Assembly: GCA_026396835.1 (NCBI GenBank)
Contig: JAPLWA010000004.1
Coordinates: 248,001-312,000, forward strand
Direction: 5' to 3'
Length of the DNA: 64,000 nucleotides
Origin: Candidatus Falkowbacteria bacterium
GTDB lineage: Bacteria > Patescibacteriota > Patescibacteriia > Patescibacteriales > Patescibacteriaceae
The position numbers and the translations under genes are program-made. Of the stretch, positions 6,234 to 11,229 are shown in pieces. The notes under the pieces were generated by a model. That model saw only the letters and a program-made list of their open reading frames with translations. It was not told where the DNA came from and made no database searches. The stretch's first letter is position 1. Each line of letters starts with the position of its first letter.

Positions 6234-8204
6234 ATGATGATTTCACGTCGTCGACAATCTAATCGTAAAGATCCTTTTGTAATTCAAGAAGGTAAGCTTA
6301 GTTACGGAAATTTCAATGGTAAATTTCATCTTAATTGGGTTGAAGAAGCTTTTACACCAACCGAACGCGGCGAAGAAACGGTTGGTAATCATTTACCACC
6401 AAAATATATTTATTTTTTGCGCGTGATTGTGGCGATCTTTTTAACTATTTTGGGTAGTCGTTTATTATGGCTACAGATTGCCAAAGGGGATTACTATCGT
6501 GACTTGGCGAATGGAAATCGATTGCGTTTAGAGCATCCTGAAGCTAATCGAGGAATCATTTATGATGCCAATGGAAAAGATTTGGTTCATAACGTTGCTA
6601 ATTTTTTGCTATATTGCGTGCCTGCAGATTTACCAAAAGATTCAAGCGAGCGAGATAAGTTAATTGATCATTTAGCAGATATTACCAAAGGTTTTGATGC
6701 AACAGAAATTAAAACTAAATTAAATGATTTAAAACCATCAAAGATTGAATATTATCAACCATTATTTTTGGCTGACAATATTGAGTATGATCAAGCTCTA
6801 AAAATTTATTTAGAATCATTTTCAGTGCCCGGTATTACCTTGTCTAGCGCTAGTCGCCGTAATTATGATTTACCTACTTTGTCTCTATCCCATGTCTTAG
6901 GTTATACCGGAAAAATTAGCCCAGAAGAATATTCGGCTAATTCAGATGTATATTCATCGATTGATTATATTGGAAAAGTTGGTTTAGAAAAATCATGGGA
7001 AGAAGAATTACGCGGCATTCCCGGTCTGAAACAAGTTGAAGTTGATGCTTTAGGCAAAGAAAAAAAAGTTGTTAGTGAAACGCCTTCTGTTCCAGGAAAT
7101 AATCTACTCTTATCTTTAGACGTCACAGCGCAACAAAAGCTAGAAGCTATTATGGCAACCTACTTAGCCAAAGTTGGTTTAAAAAAAGGCTCTGCTGTGG
7201 TGCTCAATCCACAAACAGGCGAAATAATATCCTTAATTAGTTTGCCAGCCTATGATAACAATATTTTTGCACGTGGCGTTACTAAAGATGAGTATAAAGC
7301 CTTAGCTGATAATCCTGACAATCCTTTATTTAGTCGAGCGGTTTCTGGCGAATATCCATCTGGCTCCACGATTAAGCCGATTTACGCCGCGGCCGCTTTG
7401 CAAGAAAAGATTATTACTGAATCAACTTCGTTTCTTAGTACCGGAGGTTTAAGAGTAGGGCAGTGGATTTTTCCAGACTGGAAAGCTGGTGGACATGGAC
7501 AAACTAATGTTAAAAAAGCGATTGCTGAATCAGTTAACACTTTCTTTTATTACATCGGAGGTGGCTATGATAATTTTGTTGGCTTGGGCATTGATAAAAT
7601 GGTTTTCTATTTAAGAAAGTTTTTATTAGGCGCTCCTTTAGGTATTGATTTACCTCATGAAGGTTCTGGTTTTGTCCCAACTAAAGAATGGAAAGAAACT
7701 ACCAAAAAAGAAAAGTGGTATATTGGTGACACTTACCACGTAGCGATTGGTCAGGGAGATTTAATTGTTACGCCATTGCAGGTTGCAGCTTATACTATGT
7801 ACTTTGCTAACAGCGGAACAATTTATCGTCCACATGTCGTTAAAGAAATTGTTAAGCCAAGTGGTGAATCAGTTAAGAAGATTGAACCTCAGATTTTAGC
7901 TAAGGGCATGATTGATCAATCAAATATTCAGGTTGTGCGTGAAGGCATGCGTCAAACCGTGACCTCTGGTTCGGCGCGCAGTATGAGCAGCTTGCCAGTC
8001 GAGGCGGCCGGTAAAACTGGAACGGCGCAGTGGTCAACTAAAAAAGATCCACACTCTTGGTTTACGGGTTTTGCGCCTTTCAATAATCCATCGATCGTAA
8101 TTACGGTTTTAGTTGAAGAAGGTAAAGGAGGGGACTTAATTGCTTCGCCTGTTGCGCGCGAGTTTATGCAGTGGTATTTTGGGGAATATAAGAAAGTAAA
8201 ATAA
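6234..8204 (+). CDS. mrdA: Penicillin-binding protein 2, cell-elongation transpeptidase
   Basis: Class B PBP that cross-links peptidoglycan in the elongasome. After a cytoplasmic tail of about 60 residues there is one membrane helix (about 62-82), the PBP dimerisation domain (NRGIIYDANGKDL), and the transpeptidase domain with all three active-site motifs: STIK (in YPSGSTIKP), SVN (in AESVNTFFYY) and KTG (in AGKTGTAQW). At 656 residues it is normal in size. It ends the mre block and is followed 4 bases later by the CDPS-like gene. Confidence 0.97.
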   Translation: MMISRRRQSNRKDPFVIQEGKLSYGNFNGKFHLNWVEEAFTPTERGEETVGNHLPPKYIYFLRVIVAIFLTILGSRLLWLQIAKGDYYRDLANGNRLRLEHPEANRGIIYDANGKDLVHNVANFLLYCVPADLPKDSSERDKLIDHLADITKGFDATEIKTKLNDLKPSKIEYYQPLFLADNIEYDQALKIYLESFSVPGITLSSASRRNYDLPTLSLSHVLGYTGKISPEEYSANSDVYSSIDYIGKVGLEKSWEEELRGIPGLKQVEVDALGKEKKVVSETPSVPGNNLLLSLDVTAQQKLEAIMATYLAKVGLKKGSAVVLNPQTGEIISLISLPAYDNNIFARGVTKDEYKALADNPDNPLFSRAVSGEYPSGSTIKPIYAAAALQEKIITESTSFLSTGGLRVGQWIFPDWKAGGHGQTNVKKAIAESVNTFFYYIGGGYDNFVGLGIDKMVFYLRKFLLGAPLGIDLPHEGSGFVPTKEWKETTKKEKWYIGDTYHVAIGQGDLIVTPLQVAAYTMYFANSGTIYRPHVVKEIVKPSGESVKKIEPQILAKGMIDQSNIQVVREGMRQTVTSGSARSMSSLPVEAAGKTGTAQWSTKKDPHSWFTGFAPFNNPSIVITVLVEEGKGGDLIASPVAREFMQWYFGEYKKVK

Positions 8205-8208
8205 TATT

Positions 8209-8910
8209 ATGGAAGAGAAAGCTTATTTTGATACTAATCAAAAAATAATTGATCAGAAAAAGCACAATATAATAATTCCAGTTTGTCTCGGTAATAAGTT
8301 CTTTGTTGCAGACAAAAAGGTTACTGATAATTTTCGTTATTACATTGACTACGCACTTAAAAGAACAAAGGAGAAAGTTTTAGTATTAATTGCTGATAAA
8401 GTTCAAGATACAAACTATATAGTTCGAAATAAGAACAAGAATGAGGCATCAAATAAACGAAGGGTCATGCGAGAGGGGCTGGAAGTCTATATTAGTGCTA
8501 TAGAGTTGATTGAGAAAAAGTTTAAATCAAATAAGGATAGGTTGTTAGTAGTTAGATGGGAAGATTATGAAAAGAAAGATTTGTATTTTGAGGAAACAAG
8601 AATAATTGTTTATGATGAGTTTAGAAGCAACAAGGTTTTTGCTGCTCACGTTTTAGAAACAATTAAAACAACCGTATTGGATAAAAGTTTTAGTGAATCC
8701 GAATATCTGAGATTGTGTAATTACATTCTCGATGAATTTTCTTTGTGCTATTCGGGTGTAAACTATTACGATATTCAATACGATTTAATGATTTATCCAA
8801 ATATCGACACCACTTTATATTTTTTTCAAGACTTGAAAGATGGTAAAATATACAAACGATTAACAGCAAAGTTGCCTAAAAAGAAGTTGGCTTATCTAAT
8901 AATAAATTAA
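8209..8910 (+). CDS. tRNA-dependent cyclodipeptide synthase (CDPS) family protein
   Basis: CDPSs take two aminoacyl-tRNAs and make a cyclic dipeptide. The 233 residues follow the AlbC layout as I remember it: a first strand ending IPVCLGNKFF (about residues 24-33) where the family has G-[IV]-S-x-x-N, a basic helix (KNEASNKRRVMREGLEVY), then NYILDEFSL, which places Tyr and Glu four apart like AlbC Tyr178 and Glu182, and a later MIYPNIDTT with the Tyr-Pro pair of the XYP subgroup. The nucleophilic Ser is replaced by Cys. The gene starts 4 bases after mrdA with no SD, so it looks co-transcribed with the rod-shape operon. No tailoring enzyme is adjacent. Family assignment is good, activity unproven. 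Confidence 0.8.
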   Translation: MEEKAYFDTNQKIIDQKKHNIIIPVCLGNKFFVADKKVTDNFRYYIDYALKRTKEKVLVLIADKVQDTNYIVRNKNKNEASNKRRVMREGLEVYISAIELIEKKFKSNKDRLLVVRWEDYEKKDLYFEETRIIVYDEFRSNKVFAAHVLETIKTTVLDKSFSESEYLRLCNYILDEFSLCYSGVNYYDIQYDLMIYPNIDTTLYFFQDLKDGKIYKRLTAKLPKKKLAYLIIN

Positions 8911-8968
8911 ATCGATGCTTGAGTATAATCTTTATGTCAAGCATAATGATACTTTATATTCCGCTGCG

Positions 8969-9005
8969 GCAGAGTCTCCCAAAAGGGGGATTCTGCTGTT
9001 TGTTG
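8969..9005 (+). terminator. Hairpin at the end of the rod-shape/CDPS transcript
   Basis: A 12-bp stem with two wobble pairs (8969-8980 with 8985-8996) closes an AAAA loop and is followed by TGTTTGTTG. The T run is weak. A second 8-bp inverted repeat (8915-8922 with 8937-8944) lies just upstream. It is the likely end of the rightward transcript, because the next genes run left. Confidence 0.6.
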
Positions 9006-9054
9006 TGGTAGGGTGAAATACCGGCAGATTTTCTAGCAGCTGAATCTGCTGTGG

Positions 9055-9101
9055 TCAAAAAAACAAATAAAAAAGTGTCGGAAACCAATGGTAACCGACA
9101 C
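9055..9101 (-). terminator. Terminator of the leftward integrase-repeat gene
   Basis: On the minus strand AGTGTCGG (9094-9101) pairs with CCGACACT (9073-9080) and is followed by a long T-rich stretch. It lies about 25 bases past the stop of the gene at 9125-10024. Confidence 0.85.
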
Positions 9102-9124
9102 TAACGCTTGAACTGATATTTAAA

Positions 9125-10024
9125 TTAACATTTTCCGAAGAGATCGGGATAGCTTTTCCATTCTCCGGTATTTTTATAGTGGACATATGGATTTGAGGGC
9201 CAGCCTTCTTCTGCTTTACGTTTTAATCTGTATTCATCATATGATGTAATACAATTCCTCTTCAAGAAATACTTTAAAACTTCATATGGTAGAAAGTCTT
9301 TCTTCTTTATTGTTTCCGGTCTATCTATGTTGAGCAAGTTATTCCAACCAACCCAATCTTTGTAGATTTTTTGATTTGGATTTGCCGGCCACTTAGTTAG
9401 GATATTTTCCCGTCTGAAATTCGTATAGTGCTGTCTTGAGGAAATTTTGTGTTTAGTGACCTCATCGCGTAGTTCTTCCAGTGAAATAATATGTCTCTCG
9501 AAGAAATCGTCAAAAGTCGTAAACTCAGGATAATCTCTTGGATTAGTTGGCCAATCCAGCTCTTGCGCAGCCATCTTAAGATAATCCGTTAAACTCTTTA
9601 TGTTTAACTTATTAACCTTGATTTTAAGAAGACTGAATGGTATCCGTGATTTTTGTGTTGCTTTCGGTTTTCTTTTTACTAGTTTAGTATTAAGAAAATC
9701 TTCCCAGCCTTGCCAGCCTAACTTATGAAATTCTCTTTCCGGTCTCGCTGGCCAGTTGTATTTATTTCTTTGGGATTCGTATTCCGAATAATTTTTGACC
9801 CCCGACGCTTGTACTTCTTTCTTGATACGAGCAAATTTCGCTAGCTTAGTTTCGCAGTTTAGGAAGTCAATCCATCCATTCCAGCCAAAGTTCTTAAACT
9901 CTCTTTCTGGTCTGCTTGGCCATTTTTCTTTTGTTCTTTTAGCCTCATAATCAACGAAGTTTTTAATTCCCTTGGCTTGAACCTCAGCCCTAACTTTGAT
10001 AAATTTATCCTTTTTGTTTTCCAT
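9125..10024 (-). CDS. Protein of five integrase-type repeat units, no recombinase domain
   Basis: A 299-residue soluble protein made almost entirely of about 50-60 residue repeats with the pattern Y-x(6-9)-WP-x-x-P-x(5-8)-GW-x-x-[WF]-x-[DN]-[FL]-L. Clear copies contain WPSRPEREFKNFGWNGW, WPARPEREFHKLGWQGW and WPANPNQKIYKDWVGW, and weaker ones occur in the middle and at the end. This resembles the phage-integrase repeat unit (Pfam INT_rpt) found in front of some tyrosine recombinases, but no catalytic R-H-R-Y domain is present. I start at the ATG at 10024 rather than an in-frame TTG 9 bases upstream. It shares a leftward unit with the gene at 10085-10672. A DNA-binding role is inferred only. 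Confidence 0.7.
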   Translation of the reverse strand: MENKKDKFIKVRAEVQAKGIKNFVDYEAKRTKEKWPSRPEREFKNFGWNGWIDFLNCETKLAKFARIKKEVQASGVKNYSEYESQRNKYNWPARPEREFHKLGWQGWEDFLNTKLVKRKPKATQKSRIPFSLLKIKVNKLNIKSLTDYLKMAAQELDWPTNPRDYPEFTTFDDFFERHIISLEELRDEVTKHKISSRQHYTNFRRENILTKWPANPNQKIYKDWVGWNNLLNIDRPETIKKKDFLPYEVLKYFLKRNCITSYDEYRLKRKAEEGWPSNPYVHYKNTGEWKSYPDLFGKC

Positions 10025-10084
10025 TCTTTGCAATTGTTTTTGAAAAAATTGTTTTAATAATACTTTGACTGTGCAAAATAGTTT

Positions 10085-10672
10085 TTAATTTAAGAATCGT
10101 GAAAAATCCTCATTCATAAACTGTTCATGGCTTGGAATGTTGCCAGAACCAAATGCATCATTCAGGAACAAAAGAAAGCCTGCCGCAATTTCATTATCCT
10201 TGAAGCTAATTTCGCCTTCAATTGATATGTTTAGAATTACTTTACCGTCAGTAATAAAACTGACTCCACTTTTGTCGTCTGCTGTATATTTTAGATCTAC
10301 CATCATTGGCAGGCGACTATGCAAATACAGTTGCATATCGCAGATAGATGGAAATAGATAGGTTAGAAAACCGATTGTACCCTGATATCTCAGTGAGCCA
10401 AGATACTGTCCGTATCTTCCTTTCCATTTCCACATGTTCTCTAAGTGTAGACAATAGTCTCGCACTTCGAATGGGATTGGCAAGCTTTTTAGTTTCAGAA
10501 TTGATAACCTTGTTTTATTCGTCTCTTCTTCAAGTCTATCAAGTTTTGCTTGTTTGTTGCCATCGTCAGCCCTTTCTGCGATTCTTTTGAAATAACTAAT
10601 GTACTTTATTTGTTCATAAATTAAATGAATGCAAATAATTGTCCATAGGTCTTTCTTTGTTAATTTTTTCAT
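10085..10672 (-). CDS. Hypothetical protein, 195 aa
   Basis: I do not recognise this protein. It begins with a basic, partly hydrophobic helix (KKDLWTIICIHLIYEQIKY), then a charged stretch (about 35-60) that could be a coiled coil, and ends in an alternating pattern that suggests beta strands (SFITDGKVILNISIEGEISF). There is no signal peptide. It is the first gene of a leftward pair with the integrase-repeat protein. A consensus promoter lies about 120 bases upstream, and its leader contains a 17-bp inverted repeat. Function unknown. Confidence 0.65.
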   Translation of the reverse strand: MKKLTKKDLWTIICIHLIYEQIKYISYFKRIAERADDGNKQAKLDRLEEETNKTRLSILKLKSLPIPFEVRDYCLHLENMWKWKGRYGQYLGSLRYQGTIGFLTYLFPSICDMQLYLHSRLPMMVDLKYTADDKSGVSFITDGKVILNISIEGEISFKDNEIAAGFLLFLNDAFGSGNIPSHEQFMNEDFSRFLN

Positions 10673-10697
10673 TTACGCTATTTTTTGAGTTTTAAAA

Positions 10698-10758
10698 ATA
10701 TTAGTTAAATTTTCTTAGCCGCTTAAATTTTAAGAAGCTTGGAAAATTTAGCTAATAT
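10698..10758. repeat. 17-bp inverted repeat in the leader of the leftward pair
   Basis: The arms at 10698-10714 and 10742-10758 are inverted copies with a single mismatch, separated by 27 bases that contain a further small palindrome (CTTAAATTTTAAG). It lies between the promoter at 10798-10826 and the start codon at 10672, so it would form a large stem in the 5' untranslated RNA. It could equally be an operator. Confidence 0.6.
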
Positions 10759-10797
10759 AGAAAATACTCACTTTTTTAAGGTGCAGTTAACAACGAG

Positions 10798-10826
10798 ATT
10801 ATACTACAATACTATAATTGTGTCAA
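10798..10826 (-). promoter_or_regulatory. Perfect-consensus sigma-70 promoter, leftward
   Basis: On the minus strand TTGACA (10821-10826) and TATAAT (10798-10803) are separated by exactly 17 bases. All 12 box positions match. It should drive the genes at 10085-10672 and 9125-10024. Confidence 0.85.
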
Positions 10827-10883
10827 CGTATGCTAAATACGCAATTTTGTTGCGGTGTAATCATCTCCCGTCAAATATTTTAA

Positions 10884-10925
10884 GAAATAAAAAAGCGTTA
10901 ATGACCACGAATGGAAATCAACGCC
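10884..10925 (-). terminator. Terminator of the 48-aa membrane protein gene
   Basis: On the minus strand a stem opening GCGTT (10920-10924) and closing AACGC (10895-10899), with inner pairs, an internal loop and a TTCG tetraloop, is followed by TTTTTTATT. It lies about 15 bases past the stop at 10940. Confidence 0.8.
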
Positions 10926-10939
10926 TTTACTCTTTGTTT

Positions 10940-11086
10940 TTATTTTTTCATATCCAAATAACCAAGAAAGAAAAACATAGCCAATGTTACCGTTACGAAA
11001 ATATCAAAGTTATTACTCAATATACCGGCCGTAATACCGGTGAAGAAACTTGCTACTAAGGCAAAAACGACTACCGTTTTACTCAA
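10940..11086 (-). CDS. Small membrane protein, 48 aa, TTG start
   Basis: An unannotated-looking short gene supported by a full set of signals. There is a consensus promoter (11130-11158), an SD AGGAG five bases before a TTG start (11084-11086), and a terminator right after the stop. The product begins MSKTVVVFALVASFFTGITA and continues with a second hydrophobic stretch (FVTVTLAMFFFLGYL), so it should span the membrane twice. The function is unknown. Its promoter lies back to back with the CIRCE-controlled hrcA promoter, so the two may influence each other. Confidence 0.75.
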   Translation of the reverse strand: MSKTVVVFALVASFFTGITAGILSNNFDIFVTVTLAMFFFLGYLDMKK

Positions 11087-11129
11087 AGCGACTCCTGTTT
11101 AATATTTGAAAAAAGAACTTCATAGTAAT

Positions 11130-11158
11130 TTTATATCATAATATTTACTATATGTCAA
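11130..11158 (-). promoter_or_regulatory. Sigma-70 promoter of the 48-aa gene
   Basis: On the minus strand TTGACA (11153-11158) and TATAAA (11130-11135) are 17 bases apart. The -35 box is only 6 bases from the CIRCE element on the other side. Confidence 0.8.
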
Positions 11159-11164
11159 GTCTTA

Positions 11165-11191
11165 TTAGCACTCTTGACGCGTGACTGCTAA
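11165..11191 (+). promoter_or_regulatory. CIRCE element (HrcA operator)
   Basis: TTAGCACTC-N9-GACTGCTAA, which matches the CIRCE consensus TTAGCACTC-N9-GAGTGCTAA with one mismatch. It overlaps the promoter of hrcA itself, as expected for autoregulation by the HrcA repressor, and should control the whole hrcA-grpE-hsp20-dnaK unit. Confidence 0.92.
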
Positions 11192-11201
11192 TAATGATAA
11201 A
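11174..11201 (+). promoter_or_regulatory. Promoter of the hrcA operon
   Basis: TTGACG (11174-11179) lies in the CIRCE spacer, and GATAAA (11196-11201) follows 16 bases later. Bound HrcA would cover the -35 box. The ATG of hrcA is about 29 bases further on. Confidence 0.65.
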
Positions 11202-11229
11202 ATGACAATGTTTAGAGATAATATATTTT

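Follow-up and report, generated by a model that had tools for sequence, protein, structure and literature searches.

A cyclodipeptide synthase homologue of the XYP type with a predicted cysteine nucleophile, from a clade found in Patescibacteria and DPANN archaea

Results

The locus and its variable neighbourhood

The window analysed here, a stretch of 64,000 nucleotides from a Candidatus Falkowbacteria genome, contains an intact reading frame of 233 aa at 8209-8910 on the forward strand, which codes for a homologue of the cyclodipeptide synthases (CDPSs), enzymes that build cyclic dipeptides out of two aminoacyl-tRNAs. The stop of mrdA (PBP2; 6234-8204, forward strand) lies at 8204 and the ATG of the CDPS gene at 8209, which leaves the gap of 4 bases described in the first-pass annotation of this DNA. 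The same annotation gave the upstream genes as mreBCD-mrdA, and Pfam bears this out for MreB, MreC and PBP2/MrdA, with MreD as a weak match (E 0.34). HrcA and GrpE are also confirmed by Pfam; while the rod-shape genes precede the CDPS gene, hrcA-grpE follows further downstream. A terminator-like hairpin of 15 pairs, a consensus match only, is found after the CDPS gene (8966-8999, forward strand) and none between mrdA and the CDPS gene. This arrangement suggests that the gene is probably co-transcribed with the mre-mrd genes and read from their transcript.

The CDPS gene belongs to an accessory segment at 8205-11164, which extends from mrdA to the promoter of hrcA. The right edge of this insert is conserved according to the junction comparison and is formed by an element before hrcA (11165-11191, forward strand) that we take to be CIRCE. 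Besides the CDPS gene the insert of about 3 kb holds two minus-strand reading frames, and these flanking frames show no family matches, so that no tailoring enzyme is seen at the locus. The frame at 9125-10033 (minus strand) encodes a 302-aa protein of repeats of about 50 residues with W-P-S-x-P ... G-W motifs. It has no Pfam or NCBIfam match and marginal PHROG matches only, and its repeats are, as we assume, reminiscent of integrase-repeat units. The frame at 10085-10672 (minus strand) encodes a 195-aa orphan protein, another cargo gene of the insert between mrdA and hrcA, and is preceded by a promoter-like site at 10826-10798 with a perfect TTGACA-17-TATAAT.

We compared the junction between mrdA and hrcA (8205-11229 in the window; L047, L048, L049 and L051 in the relatives) and found it to be a variable insertion site within the genus. 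In the genus-mate G003, mrdA is followed by CIRCE and hrcA within 68 bases and there is no insert, and the junction of G004 is likewise without insert. In G001 and G002 the gap is filled by unrelated other reading frames; that of G002 resembles an NlpC/P60 protein by eye and that of G001 is lipoprotein-like and on the opposite strand. The CDPS gene is absent from the aligned junction in all four (G001-G004), and none of the 12 mates in the genus and family carries it; every one of them keeps mrdA. The adjacency of mrdA and the CDPS gene, whose conservation the first-pass annotation had proposed to check, is thus unique to this genome, and the synteny rules out that the CDPS gene is a conserved member of the rod-shape operon. 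We favour horizontal acquisition of the gene, as cargo at a variable junction and without a functional tie to rod shape. An origin from a phage or plasmid is not supported, as three scans of viral contigs and tblastn in phages and plasmids gave no relative. Searches for mobile-element repeats around the insert returned short AT-rich, chance-like matches only.

Assignment to the cyclodipeptide synthases

The first-pass annotation had recognised a CDPS-like protein by eye, and profile, sequence and fold searches all agree with it. The TIGR04539 model matches residues 10-198 with an E-value of 3.1e-9 and 36.7 bits, which is under the curated cut-off of 45 bits, and the Pfam CDPS model PF16715 gives no match. 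A phmmer search of the PDB returned cyclodipeptide synthases only, all of them by number ParcuCDPS entries (best E 1.4e-13), and aligned the VCLGNKFF of the window protein with the ISLGNKWF of ParcuCDPS. With a profile of seven relatives the PDB search gave 22 sequences at E 0.01, again all CDPSs, among them 3oqh, named as YvmC. An AlphaFold2 (AF2) model, built on an alignment of 20 sequences, has a mean pLDDT of 94.6 and a pTM of 0.90 and shows the class-I aaRS-like Rossmann fold in its CDPS form. Its best 50 matches in the PDB are 50 CDPS chains, led by ParcuCDPS, with TM-scores of 0.70-0.84 to the ParcuCDPS entries. Against viral structures two CDPSs rank first and Trp- and Tyr-tRNA synthetases come next, which is expected because the CDPS fold is of their type. 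Another Rossmann family, which the first-pass annotation had named among the findings that would overturn its assignment, is ruled out, since no better family match was obtained from Pfam, NCBIfam or the comparison of PDB folds. The searches and the model confirm that 8209-8910 encodes an XYP-type CDPS homologue, a predicted enzyme.

Active site residues

Cys26 (codon TGT at 8284-8286, forward strand) aligns with the catalytic serine of ParcuCDPS, in the motif P-V-C-L-G-N-K-F-F, and so replaces the serine that takes the aminoacyl group in canonical CDPSs. The protein is in consequence a variant with a candidate cysteine nucleophile and not a canonical CDPS. Asp63 (8395-8397) is the counterpart of ParcuCDPS Asp58, which hydrogen-bonds the nucleophilic serine (PMC7613923), and is invariant in 20 relatives. 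The counterparts of AlbC Tyr178 and Glu182 are Tyr172 and Glu176 in the stretch YILDE (8722-8736), and Tyr196-Pro197 (8794-8799) aligns with AlbC 202-203, where the tyrosine is the cyclisation residue and the Tyr-Pro pair places the window protein in the XYP group; the NYH-type sequences L003-L005 carry Tyr-His there. All of these residues are placed by alignment and encoded on the forward strand. The first-pass annotation had read correctly the replacement of the catalytic serine, the Tyr/Glu pair and the Tyr-Pro pair. Tyr172, Glu176 and Tyr196 are invariant across the 20-sequence alignment. Catalysis in ParcuCDPS involves Ser26, Tyr167, Glu171 and Tyr191 (PMC7613923), and among the catalytic positions the nucleophile alone differs between the two proteins; the roles of the CDPS residues are taken from PMC5935735, PMC7613923 and PMC12945691. 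Close to the nucleophile there are two more changes: Pro24, two residues before Cys26, stands in place of Gly (Ala in ParcuCDPS), and the loop after the motif is lengthened by 5 residues in the window protein and is longer in L066.

A cysteine clade in Patescibacteria and DPANN archaea

The nearest relatives of the window protein also carry Cys. In total it occupies the nucleophile position in six sequences from five genomes: the window protein and five relatives from four genomes, one of Paceibacterota and three in the GH57 Nanoarchaeota group. The Paceibacterota MAG (L012/L023) is of the same order but another family, and its enzyme is 46% identical to the window protein. A Nanoarchaeota MAG (L022) has two tandem copies (44 and 49%), and L061 (44%) and L066 come from genomes of the relatives or class around that MAG. 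All six sequences share the change from Gly to Pro two residues upstream of Cys and the motif P-x-C-[LV]-G-N-[KR]-F-F, while every other XYP relative examined has Ser. The second copy at L022 (1-685) lies at a contig end and carries an in-frame TAA close to the N-terminus, which may reflect a pseudogene, a contig-end error or an internal start.

In the tree the six sequences form one clade (support 98/96), which is kept at 96/88 when residues 20-44, the motif and the loop, are deleted. A single change from Ser to Cys is sufficient on this tree. The sister of the clade is L062, a Ser-type XYP enzyme from a relative of the GH57 Nanoarchaeota MAG (genome G810); it shares 36% identity with the window protein and differs from the clade in its AGT Ser nucleophile, in G-I-S in place of P-x-C and in lacking the 5-residue insertion. 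The Cys codons are TGT or TGC and the nearest Ser sequences have AGT or AGC, one base away. A sequencing error or a chance Cys is ruled out, as the residue is clade-wide and encoded by two different codons. The check for fixation of Cys in relatives, proposed in the first-pass annotation, thus gave a fixed residue in the clade. We infer that the clade was spread between Patescibacteria and DPANN archaea, with horizontal transfer as the route.

Several other CDPS-like sequences were observed. L006 (G339:C73, 1420-2154) is NYH-like (TIGR04539 91 bits) with AICLNN, a second and independent case of Ser to Cys; it was not repeated among 191 genomes around its host, and we therefore leave it as a single observation. 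L060 and L070 are diverged CDPSs with SISLKP/STSLKP for SLGNKYF, in which the Asn three past Ser is Leu, by sequence a further active-site variant. L011 (G475:C18, 736-3336), from a genome of the same order, has a CDPS-like domain (TIGR04539 E 2e-8) in a protein of at least 867 residues. In L062 and L070, loci from two genomes that are relatives of the GH57 archaeal MAG, the Ser-type CDPS adjoins a small protein like the C-terminus of a serine recombinase by eye (2183-2602 and 886-1416), and these loci also adjoin apparent uS9/uL13 ribosomal protein genes. The CDPS and the recombinase-like protein may move as one unit that favours this site.

Linked methyltransferase genes

Methyltransferase linkage is found in 3/5 of the Cys loci (3/4 without the window), twice as an adjacent gene and once as a fusion. 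The fusion is that of L012, which joins its CDPS to a class-I SAM methyltransferase (Methyltransf_11 in Pfam, E 2.9e-14); at L022 and L061 the gene directly after the CDPS, on the same strand, encodes a methyltransferase. These two methyltransferases are orthologous (40% identity over their length, 3e-47), and the domain of L012 is distantly similar to them. No methyltransferase lies close to the CDPS of the window or of L066. Elsewhere in the window genome, methyltransferases show weak similarity (26-29%) and lie on the same contig at distances of about 92 and 238 kb, so we claim no partner among them. The first-pass annotation's statement that tailoring genes are missing therefore holds for the window locus and fails for the clade. 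At the Ser loci compared, the sole similar gene is a weak match about 3.6 kb from the CDPS (L025); since many of these loci were covered by 1.5 kb per side, the contrast between Cys and Ser loci is suggestive. The linked SAM methyltransferase probably often methylates the product of the Cys clade.

Neighbouring or fused methyltransferases are known for CDPSs of the NYH or AlbC-like type, mainly from Actinobacteria (PMC5816076, PMC2922099). The pairs described here differ from them in that the CDPSs are XYP enzymes with Cys, the hosts are Patescibacteria and DPANN archaea, and at least two unlike methyltransferases are involved.

Discussion

Our preferred explanation, to which we give a probability of about two in three, is that the protein is a tRNA-dependent XYP CDPS with Cys26 as nucleophile, from a horizontally spread clade whose product is probably often methylated, and that it is a cargo gene here. 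We infer the CDPS activity, the thioester chemistry and the product by homology, following the ping-pong cycle of the family (PMC5935735, PMC12945691). Asp63 would probably polarise the thiol of Cys26, to which the aminoacyl group of the first aminoacyl-tRNA would move as a thioester. The amine of this bound aminoacyl group would then attack the second aminoacyl-tRNA, with Glu176 as base and Tyr172 as anchor, and the dipeptidyl thioester would cyclise with Tyr196 relaying a proton. The thiol nucleophile had been one of two proposals of the first-pass annotation, and the fixation of Cys in the clade together with the otherwise preserved active site argues for it. Counted against this explanation are the TIGR04539 score under the cut-off, the failure of the Pfam CDPS model and the missing methyltransferase at the window and at L066.

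The substitution of Cys could instead mean that acyl transfer was lost and that the homologue, catalytically dead or regulatory, does no more than bind aminoacyl-tRNA. The in-frame TAA of one L022 copy and the published statement that active CDPSs strictly conserve the Ser (PMC5935735) agree with such a loss. We nevertheless consider it unlikely, because the clade shows Cys only, a competent nucleophile, and no mixture of residues, retains Asp63, Tyr172, Glu176 and Tyr196, and has uninterrupted reading frames in five genomes and methyltransferase partners at three loci. It is very unlikely that a Ser-type activity proceeds through some other residue as acyl acceptor and that the change at Cys26 is neutral: this is a general possibility alone, Cys26, accompanied by Pro24, is the one catalytic position that has changed across the whole clade, and the P-x-C-x-G-N motif has no invariant Ser or Thr nearby.

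Thioesters are good acyl donors, and this chemistry would suit a transferase that depends on aminoacyl-tRNA and passes the aminoacyl or dipeptidyl group that it carries as a thioester on to a different acceptor without cyclising it. The acceptor could be a small molecule or, in the form proposed by the first-pass annotation, a peptidoglycan precursor. The pocket may be altered by the Pro at -2 and by the lengthened loop behind the motif, and no tailoring enzyme is linked to the window gene. Dipeptide formation and ring closure require the invariant Glu176 and Tyr196, however, and we regard a transferase as improbable, as we do the broader proposal that the clade is a new class of aminoacyl-tRNA-dependent ligases with another acceptor, finished by the methyltransferase and exchanged between ultra-small bacteria and archaea. 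The peptidoglycan form loses its footing in the neighbourhood, as mrdA and the CDPS gene are neighbours in no other genome compared, no mate has the CDPS, and none of the other Cys loci examined lies beside mre or mrd genes. The same comparison already contradicts a conserved role of the CDPS in cell-wall synthesis as part of the mre/mrd rod-shape operon. The short gap to mrdA, the hairpin only past the CDPS and the probable co-transcription would fit such a role, but with the gene missing from all the mates that have mrdA, and their junctions empty or holding other genes, we give it next to no credence.

The closest known enzyme to the predicted CDPS is ParcuCDPS from Parcubacteria bacterium RAAC4_OD1_1 (PDB 7QB8), which makes cyclo(His-Pro) and cyclo(His-Glu). 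The two share the XYP subfamily and the fold, ParcuCDPS being the best PDB match by sequence as well as fold, and Asp58, Tyr167, Glu171 and Tyr191 correspond to Asp63, Tyr172, Glu176 and Tyr196. They differ in Ser26 to Cys26, in the Ala to Pro change two residues upstream, in the longer loop after the motif and in Glu174, which is needed for His and is Leu179 here. This last difference makes another first substrate likely and suggests a product that is probably not cyclo(His-X). AlbC of Streptomyces noursei also has the same fold and matching catalytic residues, but is of the NYH type and natively has Ser; its Y202F variant accumulates a dipeptidyl adduct (PMC5935735). The equivalent substitution was engineered in AlbC S37C (PDB 4Q24) for attaching a substrate analogue (PMC5935735), whereas the Cys of the window protein is natural and fixed in its clade.

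In the open-access literature searched we found no report of a natural Cys CDPS, and the group, which is common to ultra-small bacteria and archaea, is apparently undescribed. A major survey of the CDPS family removed sequences without the catalytic serine (PMC5816076), so that a natural Cys lineage would be filtered out by design. The support from sequence and evolution for a natural Cys CDPS clade is strong, and its enzymatic chemistry is predicted. If these enzymes are active, the CDPS family can work via thioester intermediates, and the clade would let acylation and cyclisation be tested on natural variants and would provide enzymes whose intermediates could be trapped by thiol chemistry. 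It would also represent a natural-product enzyme common to Patescibacteria and DPANN archaea, ultra-small and mostly host-dependent cells, between which cyclodipeptides, methylated or not, could act.
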